64,000 bases of DNA from a virus. Below the pieces are notes generated by a model. It searched no databases. It saw nothing but the letters and a program-made list of their open reading frames with translations, and was not told the origin of the DNA. Numbering within the stretch: the first letter of the stretch is position 1; the number at the start of each line of letters is the position of its first letter. The stretch spans positions 1 to 64,000 of the IMG/VR virus record IMGVR_UViG_3300027722_000005, one strand, 5' to 3'. The translations under genes and the position numbers were made by a program. Below, piece after piece: positions 1-50,938 of this stretch.

Positions 1-1
1 G

Positions 2-193
2 GTTTGCGGCGATACGGTCATCGAAGAGATGCCGCCGCAGCACAGGCCCAGGTCCTGGGGTCCGGGGAACAGCCCGAAGACGGCGGTTGACGCCTTCCTG
101 GCCGCTCATCCCGAGTTCGTCGCGGACCACGACTTTGACAGACTGCTGATTACCTGCAACCCGGGAGGGTACTTGCGCCATGTGGACCTATGA
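2..193 (+). CDS. C-terminus of cephalosporin-hydroxylase/CmcI-like SAM enzyme (partial)
   Basis: Only the last 63 codons are present; the gene enters from the left edge. The frame reads through NSPKTAVDAFL, HPEFVADHDFD and LLITCNPGGYLRHV, which matches the C-terminal signature of the CmcI/RhlS family (SAM-dependent enzymes of sugar or natural-product modification). The SAM site would lie outside the window. The stop overlaps the next start by 14 nt, so it belongs to the same glycan cassette. The family call rests on a short tail and is moderate. Confidence 0.65.
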   Translation, partial: VCGDTVIEEMPPQHRPRSWGPGNSPKTAVDAFLAAHPEFVADHDFDRLLITCNPGGYLRHVDL

Positions 194-734
194 CCTGGGC
201 GGGCGGCTGACCTTCCGCCCCATCGCCGAAGAGGACGCCTACCTGGTATGCAAGTGGCGGAACACGGACCTGGCCAGGGAGATGTTCTACAACCGGGGCG
301 CGGTGACGCCCGATACCCACCTGGCCTTCCTGCGCTCCCGACAACCCCACGACCTGGTGTGGATCATCGACGCCAAGTTCGGTGGTCCCATCGGCATGAC
401 CAGCCTGGCAATTGCTCCAAAAGATTACACGGCGGAGTACGGGCGGGCGTTCATCGACCCGGCCTACCAGGGGCAGGGGTTCGGGACAGAGCAGGAGTAC
501 ATGGTCCTGGCCCTGGCATTCGAGTTGTTCAACCTGGCGTCGCTGTGGGGCGACGTTCTGGTCCACAACGGGGCCGTGCGGGCGCTCCACGCCAAGACGG
601 GCTGGATGGATGCAGGGATTGACCTGCCGGGGCATACCAGCGAGCGGGGGCCGGTGCTGCACATCGAGTATCCCCGGGCCAACTGGCCCGAGCACCGGCA
701 GAAGTTCATCGATAGGTTCGGGGTGAAACTATGA
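180..734 (+). CDS. GNAT-family N-acetyltransferase (RimJ/RimL-like)
   Basis: 184 aa with the Acetyltransf_3 layout: an N-terminal strand with FRPIAEEDA, and an acetyl-CoA loop QGQGFG at residues 97-102 preceded by AFIDPAYQ. It would transfer an acetyl group from acetyl-CoA to an amine. Between a sugar-modifying enzyme and a sugar aminotransferase, an amino-sugar substrate is the natural inference, as with WecD/FdtC-type enzymes, but nothing in the sequence fixes the substrate. It ends in an ATGA overlap with the aminotransferase, so the two are translationally coupled. Confidence 0.85.
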   Translation: MWTYDLGGRLTFRPIAEEDAYLVCKWRNTDLAREMFYNRGAVTPDTHLAFLRSRQPHDLVWIIDAKFGGPIGMTSLAIAPKDYTAEYGRAFIDPAYQGQGFGTEQEYMVLALAFELFNLASLWGDVLVHNGAVRALHAKTGWMDAGIDLPGHTSERGPVLHIEYPRANWPEHRQKFIDRFGVKL

Positions 735-1747
735 TTCCTCTTCTGCGCCCGAGTGTGACCCAGGCCGAGATCGACGCCGTGACCGACGTTCTCAAGTCCG
801 GCTGGTGGGGACAGGGCAGGGTCGTCGAGCAGTTCGAGACAGAGTTGGCGGCGCGGTACAACTACGCCCACTGCATCACGACCAACAGCGCCACGGCGGC
901 TTTGCACCTGGCATTGAAGGCGTGCGGTGTGGGGCCGGGGTACACGGTGGCGCTCCCGGCCCTGACGTTCATCAGCACGGCATTGGCGGTGACGTACTGT
1001 GGCGCTACGCCTGTCTTTTGCGACGTGCGGGAAGACACGCTGACGATGGACTGGGAGACAGGGGCAGACGTGTCGATGCCCGTCGATTATGCCGGCTACC
1101 CGGCAATGGACCGCGGGATGTGGGGGCCGATTGTGCAAGACGCCGCCCATTCGTGCGGCGGTATCGGCTACGGGTATTGCGTGTGCCTGTCATTCCATCC
1201 CGTCAAGAACCTGGCGACGGGCGACGGGGGAGCCGTCCTGACAAACGACGACAAGATTGCGCGGCGGATACGCGCCCTGCGCTGGTGCGGCATCGACCGC
1301 AGCACCTGGGACCGCTCGCAGAAGCGGTACAGTTGGGACTATGACATCTCCGAGGTCGGCTACAAATATCACTGGAACGACATTCAGGCGGCCATCGGGC
1401 TGGCCCAACTGCGGCGGTTGGACGAGATAAACGCCGAGCGGCGGCGGCTGGCGATGCGCTACTCGTCGCTCCTGAAGGGAGTGCAGTTGCCCATCGACCA
1501 CGCCATTCACACCTGGCACCTGTACGCCATCCGAGTAGATCGACGCGACGACCTGATTGACCGGCTGGCGGAGAAGGGCATCGGCGCCGGGGTGCATTAC
1601 AAGCCCCTGACCTACTATTCTATGTACCGGGGCGAAACGCCGCCGGTCACGGAGCGGGAATGGCGGCGGCTGGTTAGCCTACCGCTGTACGTGGGGCTTA
1701 CCGAACAAGAGCAGGACCGGGTGATTGACGTGGTGAACCATGCCTGA
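731..1747 (+). CDS. DegT/DnrJ/EryC1/StrS-type PLP sugar aminotransferase
   Basis: 338 aa, slightly short for the family. The Schiff-base lysine is K159 in SFHPVKN, followed by the typical ATGDGGAVL stretch. QDAAH at 136-140 supplies the Asp that contacts the PLP ring nitrogen. TNSATAALHLAL near residue 52 is the usual phosphate-binding start. Members transaminate nucleotide-linked keto-sugars to amino-sugars. With the adjacent acetyltransferases this implies synthesis of an N-acylated amino-sugar. It overlaps both neighbours (4 nt upstream, 8 nt downstream). Confidence 0.93.
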   Translation: MIPLLRPSVTQAEIDAVTDVLKSGWWGQGRVVEQFETELAARYNYAHCITTNSATAALHLALKACGVGPGYTVALPALTFISTALAVTYCGATPVFCDVREDTLTMDWETGADVSMPVDYAGYPAMDRGMWGPIVQDAAHSCGGIGYGYCVCLSFHPVKNLATGDGGAVLTNDDKIARRIRALRWCGIDRSTWDRSQKRYSWDYDISEVGYKYHWNDIQAAIGLAQLRRLDEINAERRRLAMRYSSLLKGVQLPIDHAIHTWHLYAIRVDRRDDLIDRLAEKGIGAGVHYKPLTYYSMYRGETPPVTEREWRRLVSLPLYVGLTEQEQDRVIDVVNHA

Positions 1748-2132
1748 GTCGCCGCACGACGACGCCTACTTTGCCATGCGGCGCATCTCGCTGGACAGGC
1801 GGGGAACGTTGGACATTCACCCCGAAAGCCATTGGGGGTTCGACATCCACGTCATCACCGCCGGCCACGAGCTGGCGGACTGGTTCAAGGGGCCGAAGCG
1901 CAAGTCGGTCGCGGTCGGGGCGCACGCCTGGATTTGCTCGGACGTGGTGCTGTACAACTGCATCATCGGCGAGGGGGCGGTCGTGGCGGTCGGGAGCGTC
2001 GTTCGTTCCTGCGAGGTCAAGCCCTGGACGATGGTGGCCGGCAACCCGCCGGAAGTGATCGCCCGCTGCCCCGACAGGAAACCAGACAGGCCGTGGGTGT
2101 ACGTGACGGACAAGTGGCGGGTGCTGGAATGA
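1740..2132 (+). CDS. Left-handed beta-helix (hexapeptide) acyltransferase, compact
   Basis: 130 aa. The C-terminal half has hexapeptide-repeat character (VAVGAHAWICSDVVL, IIGEGAVVAVGSVV) and ends with the MVAGNPPEVIA signature of maltose/colanic-acid-type O- or N-acetyltransferases. HWGFDIHVITAGHE is reminiscent of the catalytic-His region. It lacks the longer N-terminal domain of most relatives, which average about 180-200 aa. The start overlaps the aminotransferase by 8 nt; the TGA overlaps the next ATG. Likely role is acylation of a sugar in the same pathway. Confidence 0.85.
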   Translation: MPESPHDDAYFAMRRISLDRRGTLDIHPESHWGFDIHVITAGHELADWFKGPKRKSVAVGAHAWICSDVVLYNCIIGEGAVVAVGSVVRSCEVKPWTMVAGNPPEVIARCPDRKPDRPWVYVTDKWRVLE

Positions 2133-2974
2133 TTACCGTCAATCTGTTCGATAACACCTTCCGTCACGATGTCGGGGCCGTGGCCGGCAAGCCCCCGACG
2201 AAGATTCAGTATGTGCGCGACCGGGCGTGCTGGGATGGGGTGACGTTGTTCACGGGAGGCTGCACCTCGCCCGAGTATGTGCGCCGGGTGCAAAGTGATT
2301 ACAAGGTCGGCTGGTTGCATGAACCACGCTGCTACCGGCCCGACGCCTACGAGAACCTCGACTGGGAAGGGTTGGACCTGGTACTTACCCATTACAAGCC
2401 ATTCCTTGAACGCCAAAAGGCAGAGCTTGTCCCAAGTTGCGGCGTGTGGATTCCCCGCGACCGCTGGGGCATGAGGCCCAAGACGAAACTGTGTTCGATG
2501 TTATACGGGGCCAAGAATCAGACGGAAGGCCATTGGCTGCGCCACACAATAGGTGCGTCGGTACGGGGTGTTGACTATTATGGCGTGGGCGGCACGCCAG
2601 TCACGTATGGCTGGCGGGCCAAGGAGCAGGCGTTGGCCGACTATGCCTTTTCCGTCGTGGTGGAAACGTGCCGTGAGGACAACTGGTTTACCGAGCACCT
2701 ATGCGACTGCCTCGCCGTGGGGACCATCCCTATCTTGTGGGGCCTGCCAAACTATGGCGAGTGGTTCAATCCTGAAGGCATCATCGGCTTTGACACGCCG
2801 GGGCGCTTGCAGGCGATTATCAACGGCCTGAGCATGAACCTGTACGGGGGGATGCGGGGCGCTGCTCAAGATAACCTGGAGCGGGTTGGCGACTACGAGA
2901 TTGCCGATGATCTAGTAGCAGAGGCGATAACGAAAGGGGAAACAATGAAAGGGGAAACGGAGGGCAGCCAATGA
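2129..2974 (+). CDS. GT10-like (fucosyltransferase-type) glycosyltransferase
   Basis: 281 aa. The C-terminal part carries FSVVVETCREDNWFTEHL (residues 174-191) followed by AVGTIPILWG. This matches the alpha-1,3-fucosyltransferase motif in which ExN is followed by TEK and a GxxPVxxG turn; here ET and TEH replace the usual EN and TEK. The start is the ATG in an ATGA overlap. The end has a short tandem repeat (TKGETMKGET) encoded by a repeated GAAAGGGGAAAC. It probably transfers a deoxysugar made by the cassette. Confidence 0.75.
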   Translation: MITVNLFDNTFRHDVGAVAGKPPTKIQYVRDRACWDGVTLFTGGCTSPEYVRRVQSDYKVGWLHEPRCYRPDAYENLDWEGLDLVLTHYKPFLERQKAELVPSCGVWIPRDRWGMRPKTKLCSMLYGAKNQTEGHWLRHTIGASVRGVDYYGVGGTPVTYGWRAKEQALADYAFSVVVETCREDNWFTEHLCDCLAVGTIPILWGLPNYGEWFNPEGIIGFDTPGRLQAIINGLSMNLYGGMRGAAQDNLERVGDYEIADDLVAEAITKGETMKGETEGSQ

Positions 2975-5900
2975 AGGTCTGGATGCTGCCCGAGCTAAAG
3001 CACTTTCGGTCGGAAGAAAGTGGGATCAAGCGCGTGGTAGAAGCCTACCACAAGCACATGCCTGCCCTTGGCATCGAGTTCGTAGGCGAGGGAGAACCCT
3101 ACGACCTGAAGGTATCCCACGCCGGCACGAACACAGAGGGCATCGCGGTCTGCCATGCTCACGGGCTGTACTGGACTGCCGACTTGCCCTGCAACACCTG
3201 GGAGTACAAGGCCAACGCCAATGTCATCGCCGCCATGCGCCAGGCGCGGGTAATCACCGTGCCTTCCGAGTGGGTGGCCGAGAGCATCCGGCGCGATATG
3301 CGCCGCAACCCGGTCGTTATCGGGCACGGGATAGACTGGCAGGAGTGGCAACATAACCGCCCCAACGGCGGCTATGTTCTGTGGAACAAGAACAGGTCCG
3401 GCCAGGACGTTTGTGATCCCACGTCCATGGGCGAGCTGGCCGGGGCCTTTACCAACGTGCATTTTGTGACGACCTTTGCGCCCAAGAGGCAGCGACCCAA
3501 TATCGAAGAGATTGGCGTCATCCCCCACGCGGAGATGAAAAAGCTGGTGCAGGGCGCGGCGGTCTACCTGTCCACGACCAAAGAGACGTTCGGCATCGGC
3601 GTCCTGGAGGCCATGGCGGCGGGCGTTCCGGTCCTGGGATTTGCCCACGGCGGCAACCTGGAACTGGTGGAGCACGGCGTCAACGGCTACCTGGCCGAAA
3701 ACGAAGAAGACCTGCAAGCCGGCCTGTCCTACTGCCTACAACACCGGGCCGTGCTGGGCGACAACGGGCGGGAGATGGCCCGACGCTACACCTGGGAGGC
3801 GGCCTGCGAGAAGGTCGCCGGGGTGTACCGCCTGGCGGCGGAGCCAGAGCAAGCCACGGCAGCCATCGTGATCCCGTCGTTCAACTACGCCGAGAAGGTC
3901 GGGCGGGCCATCGAGGGGGCGGTGAGCCAGTCCTACGATCTCTTGCAAGAGATCGTCGTCGTGGACGATGGCTCGGCCGACGACACGGAAGCGGCGGTCA
4001 AGGAATGGGCCGACAAAGACTCCCGCGTGCGCTACATCCGCCAAGAGAACCAGGGCGTGGCCGTGGCCCGAAATACGGGCGTCGCGGCGACGAAAACAAA
4101 GTACGCCTGCTGCCTGGACGCCGACGACACGCTGGAGCCGGGCTTTATCGAGACGTGCGTTCGCGCCCTGGAGTCCGACCCCGAGTTGGGCATCGCCTAT
4201 ACCGGGCTGCGCTACATCCTGCCCGACGGCAAGACGGGCGTGAGTCCCTGGCCCAAAGAGTGGGACTTTGACAAACAACTGAAGCGCCAGAACCAGGTGC
4301 CGACCTGCTGCGTGTATCGCAAGGAAATGTGGGAGTGCCTGGGCGGCTACAAGAAGCGGTACTGCCCCAAGGGCGCCGGCTCGGAAGACGCGGAGTTCTG
4401 GACGCGGGCCGGGGCCTACGGCTGGAAGGGCGAAAAGGTCACAGAGCAACCGCTGTTCATCTACTCCTGGCAAAGCGGTCGGGTGAGCGGCAACAAGGAA
4501 TATTCCGAGCCCGACTGGCTGGCCTGGCATCCGTGGGCCTTTGACAAGGAGCACCCCTTCGCCAGCCACGCCACGCCGGAGAAGCACAGCCATCCCGTGC
4601 GGCAGTACGACGAGCCGGCGGTATCGGTGATCATCCCCGTGGGGCCGGGGCACGAGGGGCGATTGGAAGACGCCCTGGACTCGCTGGAGGCGCAGACCTT
4701 CAGGGGCTGGGAGGCGATTGTCGTCTGGGACAGGGCCGATGGCGTGCCGGAACGCTACGGGAAAAGCTACCCCTACGTTCGCTGGCTTGCCACCAAGGGG
4801 CGGGGGGCTGGCTACGCTCGCAACCGTGGGGTTGATGCGGCCCGTGCGCCGTTCCTTCTCTTCCTGGACGCCGACGACATCCTGGACCCGGGCTGCATCA
4901 AGGCCATGATGGCGGAGTGGGCCATCGAAAACGCGGTCATCTACACCGATTACGTGGGCCTGGCCTTTATCTCGGACCTGAATGAGTTGGGCCGCGACCT
5001 GCGAGAGAGAATCCTGTGGCGGGAACCGGACGGGCTGACGGCCATGCGCTACCAGGCGCTGGACTACGACCCCGACCGGGCGCAGGCGCAGCCCACGGGC
5101 GACCCGGGCAAGGTCTACACCTGGAACCTGATCACGTCCCTGGTGCCGAAAGCCTGGCACGAGGACATCGGCGGCTTTGACGAATCCATGCCGTCGTGGG
5201 AGGACGTGGACTACTTCTGGCGATTGGCCAAGGACGGGCGCTGCTTCCGGCGCATCCCCGAGCCGCTGGTCATCTACCACTTTTACACCGGCGAGCGGCG
5301 CGAGTTCGGCAAAGAGAAGCACCGCGAGCTGTGGCAGTACCTTATCGACAAACACGAAAGGATGGAGGTCAAGATGAGCAAGTGTGGATCTTGTGGGGGT
5401 TCCAGGCGAAGCCCGGCGCCGCCCGTGGCAGCGGCGGCTCGGACGGCGCCTGCCCCGTCCATGAAGGACGACAGTTTCAAGATGTGTACCTACGCGCACC
5501 CCAACCGGGGGCAGCATCCCGTCATCGGGCAGGCGGGTTTCAGGGACCGGCTCGACGGTTTTCACATGATCCAGAAGCGCGACCGGCTGTGGTACATCCA
5601 CTACGGCTTTCGCGGCGGGGGCGAGCGGTTCCTGGTCCACGCCGACGACGTGAAGATCGCGTCGCACCTCTTCCGCGAGGAAGTGACGGTACCCATCCGC
5701 GAGCGGGAAATGGCCCCGCCGCCCATGCCCATCGTGGCAGAGGAAAAGCCGCCTGAAGTGAAGGTCACGCCGCCGCCGAAACACATCATCGACCCGTCCG
5801 ACGGCATCCAGCCCGCCGAGAGATTGGTAGCGCAGCAGGTTCTGGAGCAGTACGCTGCCGAGACACAGGGCGAGAAGCTGGCGCGGCTGGAAAAGATTGA

Positions 5901-6126
5901 GTCGCAGAACCCCGACGACTACTACAGCGCCGTGACCTTCGACGCCCAGAAACTGCCCGGCGTGACGCCCAAGATCGCGCAGTCCATGAAGCAGCGAGGC
6001 ATCGACTCGCTGGAGGACGTGCTGGACCTGGGCGAAGAGGGCTTGCAGGCCGTCGAGGGCATCGGCGCCGTGCGGGCCAGGATGATCTACGGCCGGGCAA
6101 TGGAGATGGCCGCCCATGCAGCCTGA
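2971..6126 (+). CDS. Multi-domain glycosyltransferase (GT4 + GT2 + GT2) fused in frame to a phage HhH protein
   Basis: 1,051 aa. Residues 1-290 are GT4-like, with the E-x7-E signature in KETFGIGVLEAMAAGVPV near 205. Residues 295-520 are GT2-like with VVVDDGSADD near 332 and a DADD metal motif near 384. Residues 548-790 are a second GT2 domain with LFLDADDILDPG near 630 and an ED pair in SWEDVDYFW near 744. Met802 starts a different-looking protein, MSKCGSCGGS, with PPP-rich linkers and a C-terminal helix-hairpin-helix (LPGVTPKIAQ ... VEGIGAVRARMIYG, about 990-1045). GGAGG sits 5 nt before that Met, so translation could restart there. The HhH part probably belongs to the phage connector module, the GT part to the glycan cassette. 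Confidence 0.88.
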   Translation: MKVWMLPELKHFRSEESGIKRVVEAYHKHMPALGIEFVGEGEPYDLKVSHAGTNTEGIAVCHAHGLYWTADLPCNTWEYKANANVIAAMRQARVITVPSEWVAESIRRDMRRNPVVIGHGIDWQEWQHNRPNGGYVLWNKNRSGQDVCDPTSMGELAGAFTNVHFVTTFAPKRQRPNIEEIGVIPHAEMKKLVQGAAVYLSTTKETFGIGVLEAMAAGVPVLGFAHGGNLELVEHGVNGYLAENEEDLQAGLSYCLQHRAVLGDNGREMARRYTWEAACEKVAGVYRLAAEPEQATAAIVIPSFNYAEKVGRAIEGAVSQSYDLLQEIVVVDDGSADDTEAAVKEWADKDSRVRYIRQENQGVAVARNTGVAATKTKYACCLDADDTLEPGFIETCVRALESDPELGIAYTGLRYILPDGKTGVSPWPKEWDFDKQLKRQNQVPTCCVYRKEMWECLGGYKKRYCPKGAGSEDAEFWTRAGAYGWKGEKVTEQPLFIYSWQSGRVSGNKEYSEPDWLAWHPWAFDKEHPFASHATPEKHSHPVRQYDEPAVSVIIPVGPGHEGRLEDALDSLEAQTFRGWEAIVVWDRADGVPERYGKSYPYVRWLATKGRGAGYARNRGVDAARAPFLLFLDADDILDPGCIKAMMAEWAIENAVIYTDYVGLAFISDLNELGRDLRERILWREPDGLTAMRYQALDYDPDRAQAQPTGDPGKVYTWNLITSLVPKAWHEDIGGFDESMPSWEDVDYFWRLAKDGRCFRRIPEPLVIYHFYTGERREFGKEKHRELWQYLIDKHERMEVKMSKCGSCGGSRRSPAPPVAAAARTAPAPSMKDDSFKMCTYAHPNRGQHPVIGQAGFRDRLDGFHMIQKRDRLWYIHYGFRGGGERFLVHADDVKIASHLFREEVTVPIREREMAPPPMPIVAEEKPPEVKVTPPPKHIIDPSDGIQPAERLVAQQVLEQYAAETQGEKLARLEKIESQNPDDYYSAVTFDAQKLPGVTPKIAQSMKQRGIDSLEDVLDLGEEGLQAVEGIGAVRARMIYGRAMEMAAHAA

Positions 6127-6425: not shown

Positions 6426-7697
6426 ATGACAAGAGCCTCAACGCCAACCTTATTGTCCCTGGACCGTTTCGCGTCTGTCATCGGCCTGAACCCGGCACAT
6501 TTCTCGCAGGGAACAAGCGATATTGTATTCCCTCTGGAGAATACATGCGCGGATTTACAATTCCAACATGATTGGCAGCACACCGGGGCCGTCAGCCGCG
6601 AGTCCATCGCCCGCGAGGTCGCCAAGGCAGAATCAGACCTGGCGAATTACCTTGGCTGGCCCGTCGCGCCCATGTGGATTGCCCAAGACATGAAGATGGT
6701 TGACCGCTTCCACCGGCCCGAATACTGGTCGGCGGGCAACTACAACAACCGCTACGCCCACAAGTCGGTCAAGGCCAAGTACGGCAAGATCATCGAGCCG
6801 GGGCAGCGGGCCACGACCCTGCTGGACGGGCGGGTTGTCCCTGTCTACAGCGACGTGGACGGCGACGGCTTTGACGAAACGGTGACGGTGACGTGCGCCG
6901 TGACCACGACCTACGAGTGCGAGATCAAGGTCTACTTCGACGGCCACGCCGGCACGCCCGAGTGGGAGATCCGCCCCGCGAGGACGGCGGCCATCGCCGC
7001 CGGGGTCTTTACGGCCACGTTCTACGCCTGGCAGTTCATCGACCCCGACAACTGGGAGGCGTTTCCCACGGCGGCGGCCCCTATCCCCACGGTGGACCTG
7101 GACGAAGCGGTGTACGTCAACGAGGTCGAAATCTACCGCGAGTACAACGACCCCACGGCGACCTCGGCAGTCTTTTACTGGGAGCCGGATTCGACCGTGG
7201 CGGGCTGCGACTTCTGCGGCGGCACGGGCTGCACCCACTGCGCCCTGACGACGCAGGACGGCTGCGCCCACATCCGCGATGCCATGCTCGGTATCCTCGT
7301 CCCCCGACCGGGGACATGCGCCGATGGGGCCTGGACCTCGGACGACTGGGCGGTGTGCCGCGACCCGGATCTGGTCAAGCTGTACTACTACTGTGGCAAT
7401 TTGTCGGACCTGAACCTGGCAGGTCGGCGTTGCGATGGATTGTCGGACGACTGGGCGCGCATCATTGCCTGGATGGCCACGGCCCGCCTGCCACGGCCCA
7501 TCTGCACATGCGGTAGCCCGGGTGGCCTGGTGGAGTGGCTGCAAACGGACCTGGCAATGACCACCAGAGAATCGAGCTACACGGTCCTGTGGGACGAGCT
7601 ATCCAACCCGTTCGGTACGCGGCGCGGCGAAATGGAAGCCTGGCGCTACGTCCGCGACATCGTGCGGGACAAACAAGCGGGGGCCGGTGCCGTATGA
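6426..7697 (+). CDS. Putative head-tail connector/adaptor protein
   Basis: 423 aa. The N-terminal third (VSRESIAREVAKAESDLANYLGWPVAP) resembles the helical opening of gp6-type connector proteins. The middle is beta-rich, and residues about 258-285 carry a cysteine cluster (CDFCGGTGCTHC) that could bind zinc. GGAGTAGGAAA precedes the ATG. Its position between the HhH protein and the tail tube fits a neck protein. The function is inferred mainly from order and the N-terminal helix pattern; no enzyme motif is seen. Confidence 0.65.
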   Translation: MTRASTPTLLSLDRFASVIGLNPAHFSQGTSDIVFPLENTCADLQFQHDWQHTGAVSRESIAREVAKAESDLANYLGWPVAPMWIAQDMKMVDRFHRPEYWSAGNYNNRYAHKSVKAKYGKIIEPGQRATTLLDGRVVPVYSDVDGDGFDETVTVTCAVTTTYECEIKVYFDGHAGTPEWEIRPARTAAIAAGVFTATFYAWQFIDPDNWEAFPTAAAPIPTVDLDEAVYVNEVEIYREYNDPTATSAVFYWEPDSTVAGCDFCGGTGCTHCALTTQDGCAHIRDAMLGILVPRPGTCADGAWTSDDWAVCRDPDLVKLYYYCGNLSDLNLAGRRCDGLSDDWARIIAWMATARLPRPICTCGSPGGLVEWLQTDLAMTTRESSYTVLWDELSNPFGTRRGEMEAWRYVRDIVRDKQAGAGAV

Positions 7698-7999
7698 GAA
7701 CCGTAACGTGGACTGATCGGAACGGCTGCAAGCATCGTTCGCTGGTGCGCGACACAGACCCCGACGACGCGGCCCCCCAGGGCATCCTCCAAGATCCGCC
7801 CGATCTGGAGAGGATGGATTGGGATGCCGTCAAGCGGGATCTGCACAACGCGCTGGTGGACGCGGGCCTCTACTCCTGGCGGGAAGTCCAGGGGCAGGGG
7901 GATGGGCTGAGGGGCGCGCTCCTTTCGGCCACCAGAAAGAGACTGATTGCTCTCTACAGGGAGGTTGACAATGACCCAAGCGGCAAAGACCGGATATAG
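7694..7999 (+). CDS. Small neck/tail-completion-position protein, unknown
   Basis: 101 aa, acidic and Asp-rich (TDPDDAAP, DPPDLERMDWDAV), starting at the ATG of an ATGA overlap with the putative connector. The tail-tube gene begins 29 nt before its stop. A gene of this size here is often a head-tail joining or tail-completion protein, but no family motif is recognisable. Confidence 0.7.
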   Translation: MRTVTWTDRNGCKHRSLVRDTDPDDAAPQGILQDPPDLERMDWDAVKRDLHNALVDAGLYSWREVQGQGDGLRGALLSATRKRLIALYREVDNDPSGKDRI

Positions 8000-9470
8000 C
8001 CGCGTCTTTCTCACCGATGGCGGGGCGGGTCCGCACCATGCACCCGTCTACCAGGCGTACATGAAGGCCGGCGGGGCGTCCAAGAGCTACGGCGACGTGA
8101 CCAGCATCGAAGCCCCGTCTTCCATCCAGTACGACTCGTTCATCGAAATCGACACCATCAAGGGCGCGGAGGAACGCGCCACCATGGACCTGATGTCCCG
8201 CTACCTGATGGACCTGGCGTCCGAGATGCTGCGCATCGCGGAGCTGGGCTGCGGTGTGGACATCCAGATTCACTTTGGCGCGTGTACGGACCCCACGGCG
8301 TTCAACACCTTCAAGAAGTCCTTTGTCATGGAGAACGCCTACTTCTCCAACTGGAGCACCGACGACCTGGGGGCCATCGAGTCGGGGGACCGCAACCCCG
8401 TCATGGAAACCGGCTCGATCTCGGCCAAGATCATCTACGAGATCCTGCAACTGTCCGTCCTGGAAGTGGCCGGCTCCATCGTGACCAACGAGGTCGTGGA
8501 CGTGACCATCTGCGACCAGGTGGCCTGCGGCGAGTGCGACGAAACCTCGACCGGCTGCCAGCACATCTACGCCATCACCACGGCGGCGGGTGGCTCGCCG
8601 GGCACGGCGGCGGACATCGTGCATACCATCGACGGTGCCAACTGGTACGCCGACGACATCGACTCCCTGGGGGCCGCAGAGGCACCCAACGCCGTCGCCT
8701 GCCTGGGCGATTACGTGGTCGTCGTGTCCAACGACTCGGGCTCGGCCCACTACGCCCTCAAGGACGAAGTGGACGACGTGGACTTTGACGAGGACTGGAC
8801 CGAGATCGCCACGGGCTTCGTCGGCGCGCCCAACGACGAATACCGCGCCATCGGCGGGCGGTATCTGTACGTCGTGGGCGACTCGGGGTACGTCTACCGC
8901 ACCGACGACATCACGGCGGGCGTGACCGTCCTCGATGCCGGCGTGGCGACGGTCGAGCACCTGAACGCCGTCCACATGCTGTCGGACACCTTTGGCGTGG
9001 CCGTGGGCAACAACGGGGCCATCGTCTACACCGAGGACGGCCTGGCCTGGGGCGAGCCGTCCACTAGCCCCGCGGGCGTCGGCACGCACTTCTCCTGCGT
9101 CTGGGTCGTGAGCGAAACCGTCTGGTTCGTCGGCACGACCGCCGGGACGCTGTACTACACCAAGGACAAGGCCGCCAACTGGACGGTCAAGGGCTTCCCC
9201 GGCTCGGGCGCGGGTGCGGTCCACGACATCTTCTTCTCCTCGACCGCCGTGGGCTACCTGGCCCACGCCACGGCTACCCCGGCGGGGCGGATTCTCCGCA
9301 CCTACGACGGCGGCTACTCGTGGAACATCCTGCCCGAAGGGACCGGCACCATCCCGGCCAACGACCGCATCAACGCGGTGGTGGGCTGCATCTTCGACGT
9401 GAACTTTGTCGTGGGTGTGGGCCTGGCCGACAACGCCGTGGATGGCATCATCGTCAAGGGCTCCGACTAG
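7971..9470 (+). CDS. Tail tube-like protein fused to a C-terminal beta-propeller
   Basis: 499 aa, started at the ATG 5 nt after ACAGGGAGG. Residues 1-175 look like a major tail protein (IEAPSSIQYDSFIEIDTI, then helices and ENAYFSNWSTDDLG). Residues about 190-495 are repeats of strand, turn, strand with Asp-box/YCF48-like motifs (HTIDGANWYADD, YTEDGLAWGE, YTKDKAANWTVKGF, TYDGGYSWNIL). That gives roughly six blades of a propeller that would decorate the tail surface. Tail proteins often carry Ig-like add-ons, but a full propeller is unusual. Identification as tail tube rests on position before the chaperone and tape measure. Confidence 0.72.
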   Translation: MTQAAKTGYSRVFLTDGGAGPHHAPVYQAYMKAGGASKSYGDVTSIEAPSSIQYDSFIEIDTIKGAEERATMDLMSRYLMDLASEMLRIAELGCGVDIQIHFGACTDPTAFNTFKKSFVMENAYFSNWSTDDLGAIESGDRNPVMETGSISAKIIYEILQLSVLEVAGSIVTNEVVDVTICDQVACGECDETSTGCQHIYAITTAAGGSPGTAADIVHTIDGANWYADDIDSLGAAEAPNAVACLGDYVVVVSNDSGSAHYALKDEVDDVDFDEDWTEIATGFVGAPNDEYRAIGGRYLYVVGDSGYVYRTDDITAGVTVLDAGVATVEHLNAVHMLSDTFGVAVGNNGAIVYTEDGLAWGEPSTSPAGVGTHFSCVWVVSETVWFVGTTAGTLYYTKDKAANWTVKGFPGSGAGAVHDIFFSSTAVGYLAHATATPAGRILRTYDGGYSWNILPEGTGTIPANDRINAVVGCIFDVNFVVGVGLADNAVDGIIVKGSD

Positions 9471-9494
9471 GGGCCATAGGAAAGGAGGACGCAA

Positions 9495-10094
9495 ATGGCT
9501 GATGCACGGGTAAAAGACCGGGCAAAACAACTGGCACGGGGACAGGGTGACGAAACCGAAGTCACCCTGTCCACCGGCGTTCGCGTGCGCCTGCACTCTG
9601 TCTCGGGCTCTCTGGTGGAGGACGTGAAGGACGCGATTCCCTTCCCGAAAGTCCCCGTGGTCTTTATCAAGGAGAAGGAGCGGGAAGAGGAAAACCCGTC
9701 CGACCCGGGCTACCTGGCGGCCTACGAGGAAGTGCGGAACAAGCGGGGCAATGCCGTGCTGGACGCGCTGCTCCTCTTTGGCCTGGAGTTGCTGGACGGC
9801 GTGCCCGAGGGCGACTGGCTCAAGAAGCTAAAGTTCTTGGAGCGCAAGGGGCTTCTGGACCTGTCGGGCTTTGACCTGGAGGACGACTTCGACCGGGAGT
9901 ACCTGTACAAGCGGCACGTCGCCGTTGCCGGGGCCGACCTCCAGACCATCTCCCCGCTGCAATCGCTGCGGCCCGAGGAGGTGGCCCGCGCCCGCCGTTC
10001 CTTTCTGGGCGACGCGCCACGGGGAGCCGATAGAGGACTACGGGCTGAAGCACTCGATCCAGACGGGGATCGAGATGAGCCCGCTGCTGGCTGA
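9495..10094 (+). CDS. Tail assembly chaperone, upstream product
   Basis: 199 aa with AAAGGAGG ahead of the ATG. The gene lies between the tail tube and the tape measure, where siphophages encode two chaperones (lambda G/GT type). Sequence is charged and helical (VVFIKEKEREEENPS, LERKGLLDLSGFDLEDDFDREY). From about codon 170 the reading frame deteriorates to an Arg/Asp-rich tail, while the next frame becomes protein-like. A programmed frameshift into 10,075-10,260 is therefore likely. Confidence 0.75.
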   Translation: MADARVKDRAKQLARGQGDETEVTLSTGVRVRLHSVSGSLVEDVKDAIPFPKVPVVFIKEKEREEENPSDPGYLAAYEEVRNKRGNAVLDALLLFGLELLDGVPEGDWLKKLKFLERKGLLDLSGFDLEDDFDREYLYKRHVAVAGADLQTISPLQSLRPEEVARARRSFLGDAPRGADRGLRAEALDPDGDRDEPAAG

Positions 10095-10260
10095 GTGGGA
10101 AGCGGCCCACGCGGCGAACCTGGACCTCTACAAGTGGGACCAGGGCGAGTACCCGACGGCCTTCATGGCGCGGGTGCTGGCCTGGTTCTCGCGCCATAGG
10201 GAGCTGGAGATGCACCGGGACGATGCCGTGGCAAGGGCCATGGAGCGGAAGGGCAAATAG
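10075..10260 (+). CDS. Tail assembly chaperone, downstream (frameshift) part
   Basis: The frame is open from upstream of 10,000 and reads EPIEDYGLKHSIQTG, LLAEWEAAHAANLDLYKW, FMARVLAWFSRHRELEMHRD. An ATG at 10,075 lacks a convincing ribosome site, so expression as the extension of the preceding gene by a +1 (or -2) shift near 10,003-10,022 is preferred. The tape measure ATG follows the TAG with no gap. Coordinates given are the independent-start version; the joined product would be about 255 aa. Confidence 0.6.
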   Translation: MSPLLAEWEAAHAANLDLYKWDQGEYPTAFMARVLAWFSRHRELEMHRDDAVARAMERKGK

Positions 10261-13200: not shown

Positions 13201-13998
13201 CTTATCGATCTTGCCGAGTCGCACCGGCTGGAGTTGGAGGAGATCGACCGCAGCTACCAGCAGAAGGAAGCCGACCTGAAGGCGGCCAACGAGAGGGAGC
13301 GGGCCGAGATCCTACGCCGCTACCTGGAGAAATTGACCGACCTCGATACCCAACTGGCGGCGGAGCAGGCCAAGCTGGCGGCCGACGCGGAGAAGGACCG
13401 GCTGCGGCTGCAAGAGAAGCTGGAAGAAGAAAAGACCAACTACGCCGAACGCGAGAAGGAACTCAACGACCACTACGGCCGGCAACTGGCGGAGATTGAC
13501 GCCAGCCAGAAGAAGGAGCACGACGAAATAAAGGCGGCGCTCGACAAAGAAGAATTGATGATCATCGATGAATTGGGTGCCCAAAACCGAGCCTTTTACG
13601 ACGCCCACAAAGTGCGGCACGACGACCTATACAACGCCCTCTATGGACCCGGCGGCGAGTACGAGCTGTGGAAGAAATACTTTGACGACCTCGCGGCCCT
13701 TTCGGAAAGCGGCTCGCCCTCCAAGTGGTTCATCCGCTTTGGGCAGCAGCAGGTCCAGGGCTACAAGATCGGCGCCGACTTTGAGCCCGCCATGCAACAG
13801 ATCATGGGCCAGTTCCAGGGGATGCAGTCGGACCTGATGGGCATGGCGCCTTCCCAGCAGGTGATCGTCCCGCCGATGATGGGGGGCGCGACGACCAACA
13901 ACAGCCTGAGTGTCACGGCGCAATACAAGCACCAGAGCGAGGCGTCCCTGCGGGATGACCTGGCGCTGTACTCCATGATGATGGGCATGAGAGCATGA
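10261..13998 (+). CDS. Tape measure protein
   Basis: 1,245 aa, the longest tail gene, following the chaperone pair. The N-terminal 300 residues are helical. A hydrophobic Ala/Gly-rich stretch at about 380-455 (AAKLPTLTNAMTAFG, LGMGGLIAILAGVAAAVAAAE) gives the membrane-active segments typical of tape measures. Residues about 690-1,150 are an unbroken, highly charged coiled coil with short repeats of ADLxxDRQRDIEDANRDY type. It sets tail length and is ejected with the DNA. Long minus-strand open frames opposite it are antisense artefacts. Confidence 0.93.
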   Translation: MALKQSGVQLVAEGSQEFVVNVNKANEALAQFQKQVESTASASAQMGTAGMDKFAGSFYDATSKLTERAQDIKQTVEAMRIKAPQLDEASWNKIAERMAVRPIGDWGGFADEFKRVAAEVVAEQRKMGDEAEALADRYKQATKEMQPFGQALLAIGAAGTSAALATSLVASRIEELETILEVTRVNAVNMAEAELDWTKASQLSTQAVQEEVQAVRDMHLAGTVANQMVAQLIRYNLDWSRASEMARLAQDAAVFAMQDSTKAAEGLINGIITLQPRVLRTYGLLINLDVAYEKYALANNVAAESLTVAERQAAAFNEVLAQAPQIAGAYEAAMGTGAKQIRSFKTDIINFSEAYGEAFTPTLDAGVGKVRELINVFADFSEPARAGIATTVTAASAFAALSGGAITLAAKLPTLTNAMTAFGVATGISTKALLGMGGLIAILAGVAAAVAAAERAHREEALAILAGAENYRAYIIRLDAATLSAYALTEGLYKLVKAQEESNQAAFAKALDDAKASLDGMSIVLEDTDADLEKLSRGTAVAISALSDMQLRVLQDKDAVLELGTEMGLTGDELIRWVNAVINLATEMAIARGETKNYTAFERERAQVLRESMGPTEDLAKQTINLSAREKEVRDNLVKLGYSMKEATNITLGFGLAIHESTYQLSIMEEQALKNKYALAGLADAEKEYDDRMKEARSRAADQMVAADERANDQRDSAAQKLHDDLIDLNKDYADKVEDILKDLAQIDVDLQADLLAAQQENLAERQEAWDDYQQDLADSERDFQQDMADLATDRQRDIEDANRDYAQDRADALRDLNRDLEDLERDHTANLLEIDRDYYKELEELAEEYGQKLSDINEKYAQERQDIEGKYSTEPEEPDFDERREALQERIAELEELRQGGMGVYYDAELMQLQKQLEELKAEELAALDDRKQAELDALEAWLAEEQAIRDTAHQGALAAEQAAYEGKRAEKQQQYEQDLIDLAESHRLELEEIDRSYQQKEADLKAANERERAEILRRYLEKLTDLDTQLAAEQAKLAADAEKDRLRLQEKLEEEKTNYAEREKELNDHYGRQLAEIDASQKKEHDEIKAALDKEELMIIDELGAQNRAFYDAHKVRHDDLYNALYGPGGEYELWKKYFDDLAALSESGSPSKWFIRFGQQQVQGYKIGADFEPAMQQIMGQFQGMQSDLMGMAPSQQVIVPPMMGGATTNNSLSVTAQYKHQSEASLRDDLALYSMMMGMRA

Positions 13999-14909
13999 AA
14001 CCCTTTCCCGAGTTGGAGTTGGAATCCGCCGGCGGCACCGTCTACCCCCTGGTGATGCCGTACCGGCAGGCGACGGAATGGTCGGGGCTGGGCCTGCCGC
14101 CCATCCGCCACTGGACGACGCGGGCGCCCTTCCAGACAGGCGAATCCCACTGGGGCTACGCCATCGGCCCGCGGGTGATCAACGTCGTCCTATACACCAA
14201 GGGCTGCGACCGGGCGGATATGTACGCCAAGACGCGGGCCAACACCCTGATGCTGAGTCCGACGAACGGGCCGCACAAGCTGCGACTGATCACGCCGGAC
14301 CTCAAGCAGTACGAGCTGCACAACGTCTGGGTCACAGGCGGCTACGAGCTTTCGACGCAGGACCAGCGGTCGCCCCGGCGGCAGAGCGGGGCAGTGCAGT
14401 TGACGGCCTACGACCCCATCTGGAAGTGGGCCAATAGCCCCCTGGGCGTGGGGGAGACGCGGGACGCGAGCGGGCGGACGTGCATGGCGACGGACGCCTT
14501 TGTGACGGCCAATACCCTGGTCCTGCCCTTTACCGGGCCGTATCTGCTCAACACCGTGACCGCTACAGCCTCCCTGACCTGCGTCAACGACGGTTCGTGG
14601 GCCGTGCGGCCGACGGTCACGATGGAGGGGCCGCTGTCAGATTGGACGCTGACCAATGCCACCACAGGCAAGGCCATGGCCTGGGATGGCTACGACATCG
14701 CCACGGGCGAGATCGTGGCCATCGACATCCCCAACAAGACCGTGACCAACGGGGCGGGCACGGACCTGACGACCTACCTATCCGGCGACTTTGGCACGTT
14801 CGCCCTGGAGCCGGGGGCCAACACAATCAATTTCTTCGGCGCGGGCAGCGTGGTGGCGGCCGTTACAACGGTCGGCATCTGCTGGTACGTGGAGTTGCTG
14901 GGACTATGA
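13995..14909 (+). CDS. Distal tail protein (Dit-like)
   Basis: 304 aa, overlapping the tape measure by ATGA. The C-terminal domain shows the Dit/siphovirus tail component pattern: RPTVTMEGPLSDWTLTNATT, then GEIVAIDIPNKTVTN, then FALEPGANTINFFG. The N-terminal half is the beta-sandwich that stacks on the last tube ring. It forms the hub onto which baseplate and fibre proteins attach. Position directly after the tape measure is canonical. Confidence 0.85.
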   Translation: MKPFPELELESAGGTVYPLVMPYRQATEWSGLGLPPIRHWTTRAPFQTGESHWGYAIGPRVINVVLYTKGCDRADMYAKTRANTLMLSPTNGPHKLRLITPDLKQYELHNVWVTGGYELSTQDQRSPRRQSGAVQLTAYDPIWKWANSPLGVGETRDASGRTCMATDAFVTANTLVLPFTGPYLLNTVTATASLTCVNDGSWAVRPTVTMEGPLSDWTLTNATTGKAMAWDGYDIATGEIVAIDIPNKTVTNGAGTDLTTYLSGDFGTFALEPGANTINFFGAGSVVAAVTTVGICWYVELLGL

Positions 14910-50752: not shown

Positions 50753-50825
50753 GCTCTCGTAGAGGAGCGGAGTCCTCACCGCGCTGTCAACGCGGAGATC
50801 GTGGGTTCAAATCCCACCGGGGGCG
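50753..50825 (+). tRNA. tRNA-Asp (anticodon GUC)
   Basis: All arms fold. Acceptor GCTCTCG pairs with CGGGGGC (two G-U pairs). D arm GAGG/CCTC with GG in the loop. Anticodon arm CCGCG-CTGTCAA-CGCGG, anticodon GTC. Five-nt variable loop AGATC. T arm GTGGG-TTCAAAT-CCCAC. The discriminator is G73, an Asp identity base. CCA is not encoded. It lies alone in a gene-poor stretch, so it is probably carried by the element rather than being the insertion site. Confidence 0.88.
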
Positions 50826-50938
50826 CGTGTATCTGAAACGGGGCTCAATCTCCGCAAGTAGGATGCATCCGGCGGCGCCACCGGCTCCCACAGACTAACC
50901 GGGGGCCGGGGCGCACGCTTTACAAATCGAATAACCGT

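Follow-up and report, generated by a model that had tools for sequence, protein, structure and literature searches.

A gene of 499 codons in the 64-kb window (the first 64,000 nucleotides of an 87.7-kb viral record) is predicted to encode a tail tube subunit with a C-terminal beta-propeller (Table 1). The product is likely the major tail protein of a phage whose tail is long and probably non-contractile, with propellers that would form a permanent and conserved coat on the tail rather than a strain-specific receptor binder. This reading draws on the sequence, the synteny, the conservation, the fixed fusion of the two domains and the covariation of cysteines, together with a predicted fold and predicted disulfides.

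Table 1. Features of the tail region and of the domains of the tube-propeller protein (window coordinates)
Feature	Position	Strand	Basis or detail
Sugar cassette, window part	180..6126	+	GNAT acetyltransferase, DegT aminotransferase, weak GT10-like protein, GT1+GT2+GT2 protein
Small gene between sugar genes and connector-like gene	starts 6116	+	
Head-tail connector-like gene, 423 aa	6426..7697	+	synteny in 63/70 loci
Small syntenic gene, 101 aa, overlaps start of tube-propeller gene	7694..7999	+	synteny
Tube-propeller gene, predicted major tail (tube) protein with C-terminal beta-propeller, 499 aa	7971..9470	+	homologues, AF2, Foldseek; single continuous frame, ATG 7971, stop 9468-9470
N-terminal tail-tube-like domain, residues 1-180	7971..8510	+	AF2; Foldseek match to Mycobacterium phage Spud tail tube
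Cys-rich linker, residues 181-196 (C181, C186, C189, C196)	8511..8558	+	alignment, AF2
C-terminal YCF48-like beta-propeller, residues 197-499, read as seven blades	8559..9467	+	profile search, AF2, Foldseek
Tail assembly chaperone-like gene, two frames	9495..10260	+	frame 0 to 10094, +1 frame to 10260, shift site TTT C 10002-10005
Tape measure protein, 1245 aa	10261..13998	+	PHROG 3779, E 3.1e-5
Distal tail protein (Dit)	13995..14909	+	Pfam SPP1_Dit E 2.6e-9; PHROGs 106, 33

An AlphaFold2 (AF2) model built from 61 sequences had a pLDDT of 92.8 and a pTM of 0.90; a version built from four sequences gave a pLDDT of 37. In the model, a beta-rich N-terminal domain extended to approximately residue 180 and the propeller began at approximately residue 197, with a Cys-rich linker between the two, in agreement with the boundary near residue 175 given in the original prediction. 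The top match of the full-length protein in a Foldseek search of the PDB was a seven-bladed YCF48 structure aligned to the C-terminal part (E 2e-11, target TM 0.73), and a profile of seventeen sequences matched solved YCF48/HCF136 (E 1.6e-10). The Pfam family PSII_BNR was matched by all 17 members of alignment A5 (best E 2e-9), the single protein scoring 20.9 bits (E 2.4e-4) against a curated cut-off of 27, and the NCBIfam YCF48 equivalog scored 21 bits against a cut-off of 326. Matches to PHROG 8700 were confined to the propeller. The protein has Asp-box-like motifs at residues 219, 354 and 444, and most relatives have a further one at 397; the propeller fold combined with Asp-box-type repeats places the domain among the YCF48-like or BNR beta-propellers. 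The confident model and the YCF48 match bear out the complete propeller that had been proposed, and the YCF48-like repeats were recovered. Their count, first given as about six, is more plausibly seven blades, two of them three-stranded, to judge by the DSSP strand pattern and by the best structural matches, which are seven-bladed.

The seven-bladed YCF48/HCF136 shares the predicted fold and the Asp-box repeats, but the propeller described here follows a tail-tube-like domain in the same protein, is encoded among phage structural genes and was 14-18% identical to the best solved structures. Identity as a YCF48 photosystem II assembly factor was rejected because the family cut-offs were not reached and only the fold and repeats were common. 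An Ig-decorated major tail protein was also rejected since the C-terminal domain is a propeller and not Ig-like by AF2 and Foldseek. Within BFVD the best match was the viral protein A0A1P8DJ39, which aligned along its full length with the two domains (TM 0.72/0.72) at 17% identity and carries no annotation.

The N-terminal domain of the model had the secondary-structure pattern of a major tail protein (MTP) beta-sandwich with one flanking helix. Foldseek was queried with the full-length protein and, among the BFVD matches listed, one was a tail tube protein, that of Mycobacterium phage Spud (E 2.1e-5, 172 columns, target TM 0.59). Structure prediction, one of the checks proposed at the outset, did not place the N-terminus outside tail tube folds. 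A profile of the domain had no sequence match in the PDB or PHROGs, and Pfam likewise returned nothing from known tail tube families. Described tube families are very divergent, and the missing match therefore weakens but does not exclude a tube identity. As it tests similarity to described families and not being a tube, the claim was lowered rather than dropped. The tube identity of this domain is supported but not conclusive, resting on the one structural match among those listed and on gene position.

Gene position was given by a single co-directional run on the plus strand, in the order sugar and glycosyltransferase genes, a small gene, the connector-like gene, the 101-aa gene, the tube-propeller gene, the chaperone-like gene, the tape measure and Dit. 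The connector-like gene had no match in Pfam or PHROGs. The tube-propeller gene thus sits between the head-tail connector-like gene and the chaperone, tape measure and Dit genes, where a tube protein is expected. Near the end of the chaperone gene is a conserved in-frame TTT C, after which the +1 frame is open into a homologous extension that reaches the tape measure, and this arrangement of a frameshifted chaperone was present in 55 of the 61 distinct loci whose sequence sufficed for the assessment. In bacteria, +1 frameshifting tends to occur at UUU-Ynn, and chaperones that are made by frameshifting and bind the tape measure and the tube protein show wide conservation among long-tailed phages (PMC5009743). 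The codon before TTT C was TCC in 26 of the 55 loci. The site was often preceded by TCC and then continued into a CGN codon frame (10002-10005 and 54 related loci), close to the UCC UUU CGU minimal frameshift cassette described for influenza PA-X (PMC5009743).

The putative frameshifted chaperone next door is the strongest contextual argument for tube identity and, with the tape measure, Dit, gene position and the one structural tube match, it supports the earlier view of the N-terminus as a tail tube subunit. A different tail or head protein carrying a propeller would fit with the N-terminal domain having no sequence similarity to known tube families. Such a protein is very unlikely given that the gene directly precedes the frameshifted chaperone and tape measure, that the fold matches a tail tube protein, and that no other candidate was seen between the putative capsid gene and the tape measure, where the remaining genes are sugar genes, the connector-like gene and two small genes. 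No sheath gene was seen among the tail genes examined.

The opposite end of the record encodes a terminase, a portal-MuF protein, a putative capsid protein and the remaining sugar cassette (an epimerase, a DegT protein and further genes). The sugar cassette probably links the head and tail modules across the two ends of the record, and as both ends fall inside this cassette the genome is probably circularly permuted. Promoter and terminator scans gave results at chance level only. A tRNA-Asp (gtc) at 50753-50826 was the sole tRNA found within the window. In locus L088, the region 8022-10083 between the portal and capsid genes encodes a tail-spike-like protein (PHROG 12123) and a second, unassigned protein that, judged by eye, resembles a glycoside hydrolase.

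A query with the single protein identified three close full-length relatives that were 74, 75 and 70% identical. Iterated alignment searches reached 13 loci with the N-terminal domain, 6 with the propeller and 69 with the joint alignment. Altogether, approximately 70 viral loci encode a protein of this kind of about 500 aa in the tail-tube slot, with full-length identity of 47% in locus L005 and 26-32% in the most distant clade. Intact reading frames were all approximately 490-520 aa with both domains in one frame, one locus (L064) being broken and a few being clipped by contig ends. The connector-like gene was used as bait in an independent test and led to 11 contigs not reached earlier, all of which had a protein of about 500 aa adjoining the connector-like gene, with both domains clearly detected in ten. 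Among the homologous loci and these 11 contigs, no propeller-less version was found.

Proteolytic removal of the propeller, or its synthesis in some copies only, has a precedent in SPP1, where the short and long forms gp17.1 and gp17.1* occur 3:1 via a frameshift (PMC8718954). A mixed population of this type is nevertheless distinctly unlikely for the present family, as all intact homologues encode the two domains in a single frame and as casual cleavage is less to be expected at a junction that is predicted to be structured and Cys-linked. No sign of a truncated form was noticed at the junction.

A tblastn search of INPHARED (50,697 isolated phage records) with four family members gave no match. 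Locus L005 (JAQYVZ010000064.1) is a 7.2-kb contig binned in a Desulfuromonadales metagenome-assembled genome (MAG) and is the sole host hint, although it could be mis-binned. In 395 genomes from the phylum of this MAG, a full-length match was present only in the MAG itself, and the other matches listed covered part of the propeller. Several loci were unusual. L115 (7468-9015) is a far outlier of 516 aa with a propeller match of E 2.6e-10 and an N-terminal domain too diverged to detect. L044 and L052 are two complete tube-propeller modules located 75 kb apart on one contig of 143,142 bases, which may be two phages joined in assembly as a 69-kb contig carries one of the modules alone. In L064 (5986-6396) the frame breaks after 137 codons while homology continues, reflecting either an assembly error or decay.

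Mean pairwise identity was 0.43 for the propeller versus 0.35 for the tube domain, and the propeller value was higher in 87% of pairs. Distances in the two parts were correlated, with an r of 0.82 overall and 0.69 within the main clade, whereas permutations reached at most 0.21 for the overall value. The dN/dS ratio was approximately 0.1-0.2 in both parts, and approximately 0.14-0.23 for the propeller compared with the three close relatives. Positive selection on the propeller and module swapping were both rejected on the basis of conservation, distance correlation and dN/dS. As beta-propellers are common binding folds and the Ig decorations of some siphophage tubes have been proposed to be weak cell-wall sugar binders (PMC8718954), the propellers could be host-range receptor- or glycan-binding modules that coat the tail, as was originally suggested. 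We consider this unlikely, since the propeller shows stronger conservation than the tube domain, which is unexpected for a host-range receptor binder, and tracks the tube domain with low dN/dS and no sign of swapping or diversification. The hundreds of glycan- or protein-binding sites first envisaged are not supported in that form. The pattern of conservation in the sequences speaks for a coat that is fixed and structural or adhesive, and against a variable, fast-evolving receptor binder.

Two pairs of cysteines covaried. Cys181 and Cys244 were both present in 41 sequences, both absent in 20 and mixed in none, over 7 changes on the tree, while Cys196 and Cys473 were both present in 46, both absent in 15 and mixed in none, over 3 changes. 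For 181/244, all six of the independent pairs that lie on supported branches agreed (sign test p 0.031, a modest value); 196/473 gave too few such pairs for a test. As the paired cysteines were lost only together, two disulfides are predicted, C181-C244 from the linker to the blade region and C196-C473 closing the propeller ring. Cys94 and Cys105 in the N-terminal domain were nearly invariant, as was the CxxC at 186/189.

Hexameric rings, exterior display and copy number are inferred, and the function is judged from conservation. The N-terminal domains would assemble around the tape measure as a stack of rings, aided by the adjoining frameshifted chaperone. The Cys-rich linker would carry each propeller to the tube exterior, the site of the Ig-like domains in lambda, T5 and SPP1, and a tail would display an estimated 270 or so propellers, given a 1245-residue tape measure, approximately 1.5 Angstrom per residue, approximately 40 Angstrom per ring and six subunits per ring. 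C181-C244 would tie the linker to the propeller and C196-C473 would close the propeller ring, both presumably formed once the particle is outside the cell. Such a propeller coat would stabilise the tube and offer weak, multivalent contact with a conserved ligand.

Lambda gpV, T5 pb6, SPP1 gp17.1* and YSD1_22 likewise have an N-terminal tube domain followed by an extra C-terminal domain expected on the tube exterior, with a frameshifted chaperone and tape measure in the same gene order. In those proteins the extra domain is an Ig- or FN3-type domain of about 90 residues, in contrast to the propeller of about 300 residues with predicted disulfides. The Ig domain is present in some other siphophage tubes and missing from others (PMC8718954), whereas the propeller was present in every locus examined. 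The known exterior MTP domains in a 2021 review were Ig folds, found in siphovirus-like tails since such domains would clash with a sheath, and the word propeller is absent from that review (PMC8718954). A search of openly licensed papers yielded no tube protein with a propeller. Agrobacterium phage Milano also has tail disulfides, in its tube and sheath, but these link subunits of a contractile tail (PMC10811340) and the pairs predicted here read as within one chain. The tube-propeller protein was classed as a variant of the decorated major tail proteins, in which the new part is a propeller replacing the Ig decoration.

The sugar cassette is co-directional with the tube-propeller gene and located between it and the putative capsid gene, and this gene run corroborates the shared operon that was originally noted. 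It includes an epimerase, two DegT aminotransferases, a GNAT and a GT10-like protein within the structural operon (window 1-2974 and L088 13485-17740), and the window region 2971-6126 encodes a protein of 1051 aa in which three glycosyltransferase regions, one GT1-like and two GT2-like, are accompanied by a helix-hairpin-helix at the C-terminus. Because the cassette is adjacent, virion glycosylation is a live alternative or addition to a conserved structural coat, with the propeller serving mainly as an acceptor surface for sugars from the cassette and the glycosyltransferases. A glycosyltransferase homologue was located upstream of the tube-propeller gene in 51 of 70 loci, and glycosylation of capsid and tail tube is reported for mycobacteriophages Che8, Corndog and Myrna (cited in PMC12363180). 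The capsid or the host surface is an equally possible sugar target, and some loci had no glycosyltransferase homologue in the available DNA, making a main role as acceptor rather improbable. A fuller version of the coat reading, in which an ordered, disulfide-closed propeller coat extends across this lineage of uncultivated tailed phages with one propeller per tube subunit and is glycosylated by the phage's own cassette, would as far as found be an undescribed architecture and is put forward here only tentatively, as a doubtful possibility.

The family has several wider implications. The family recurs in metagenomic viral contigs, with no isolated-phage match and no PHROG match to the N-terminal domain, and is thus nearly invisible to present annotation. 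It would represent a natural high-density display of a large domain on a filament, at an estimated 270 or so copies. The roles of the small Ig-fold decorations of tail tubes are debated, and a propeller of approximately 32 kDa that is present in every homologue examined and more conserved than the tube would make the role of tube decorations directly testable.
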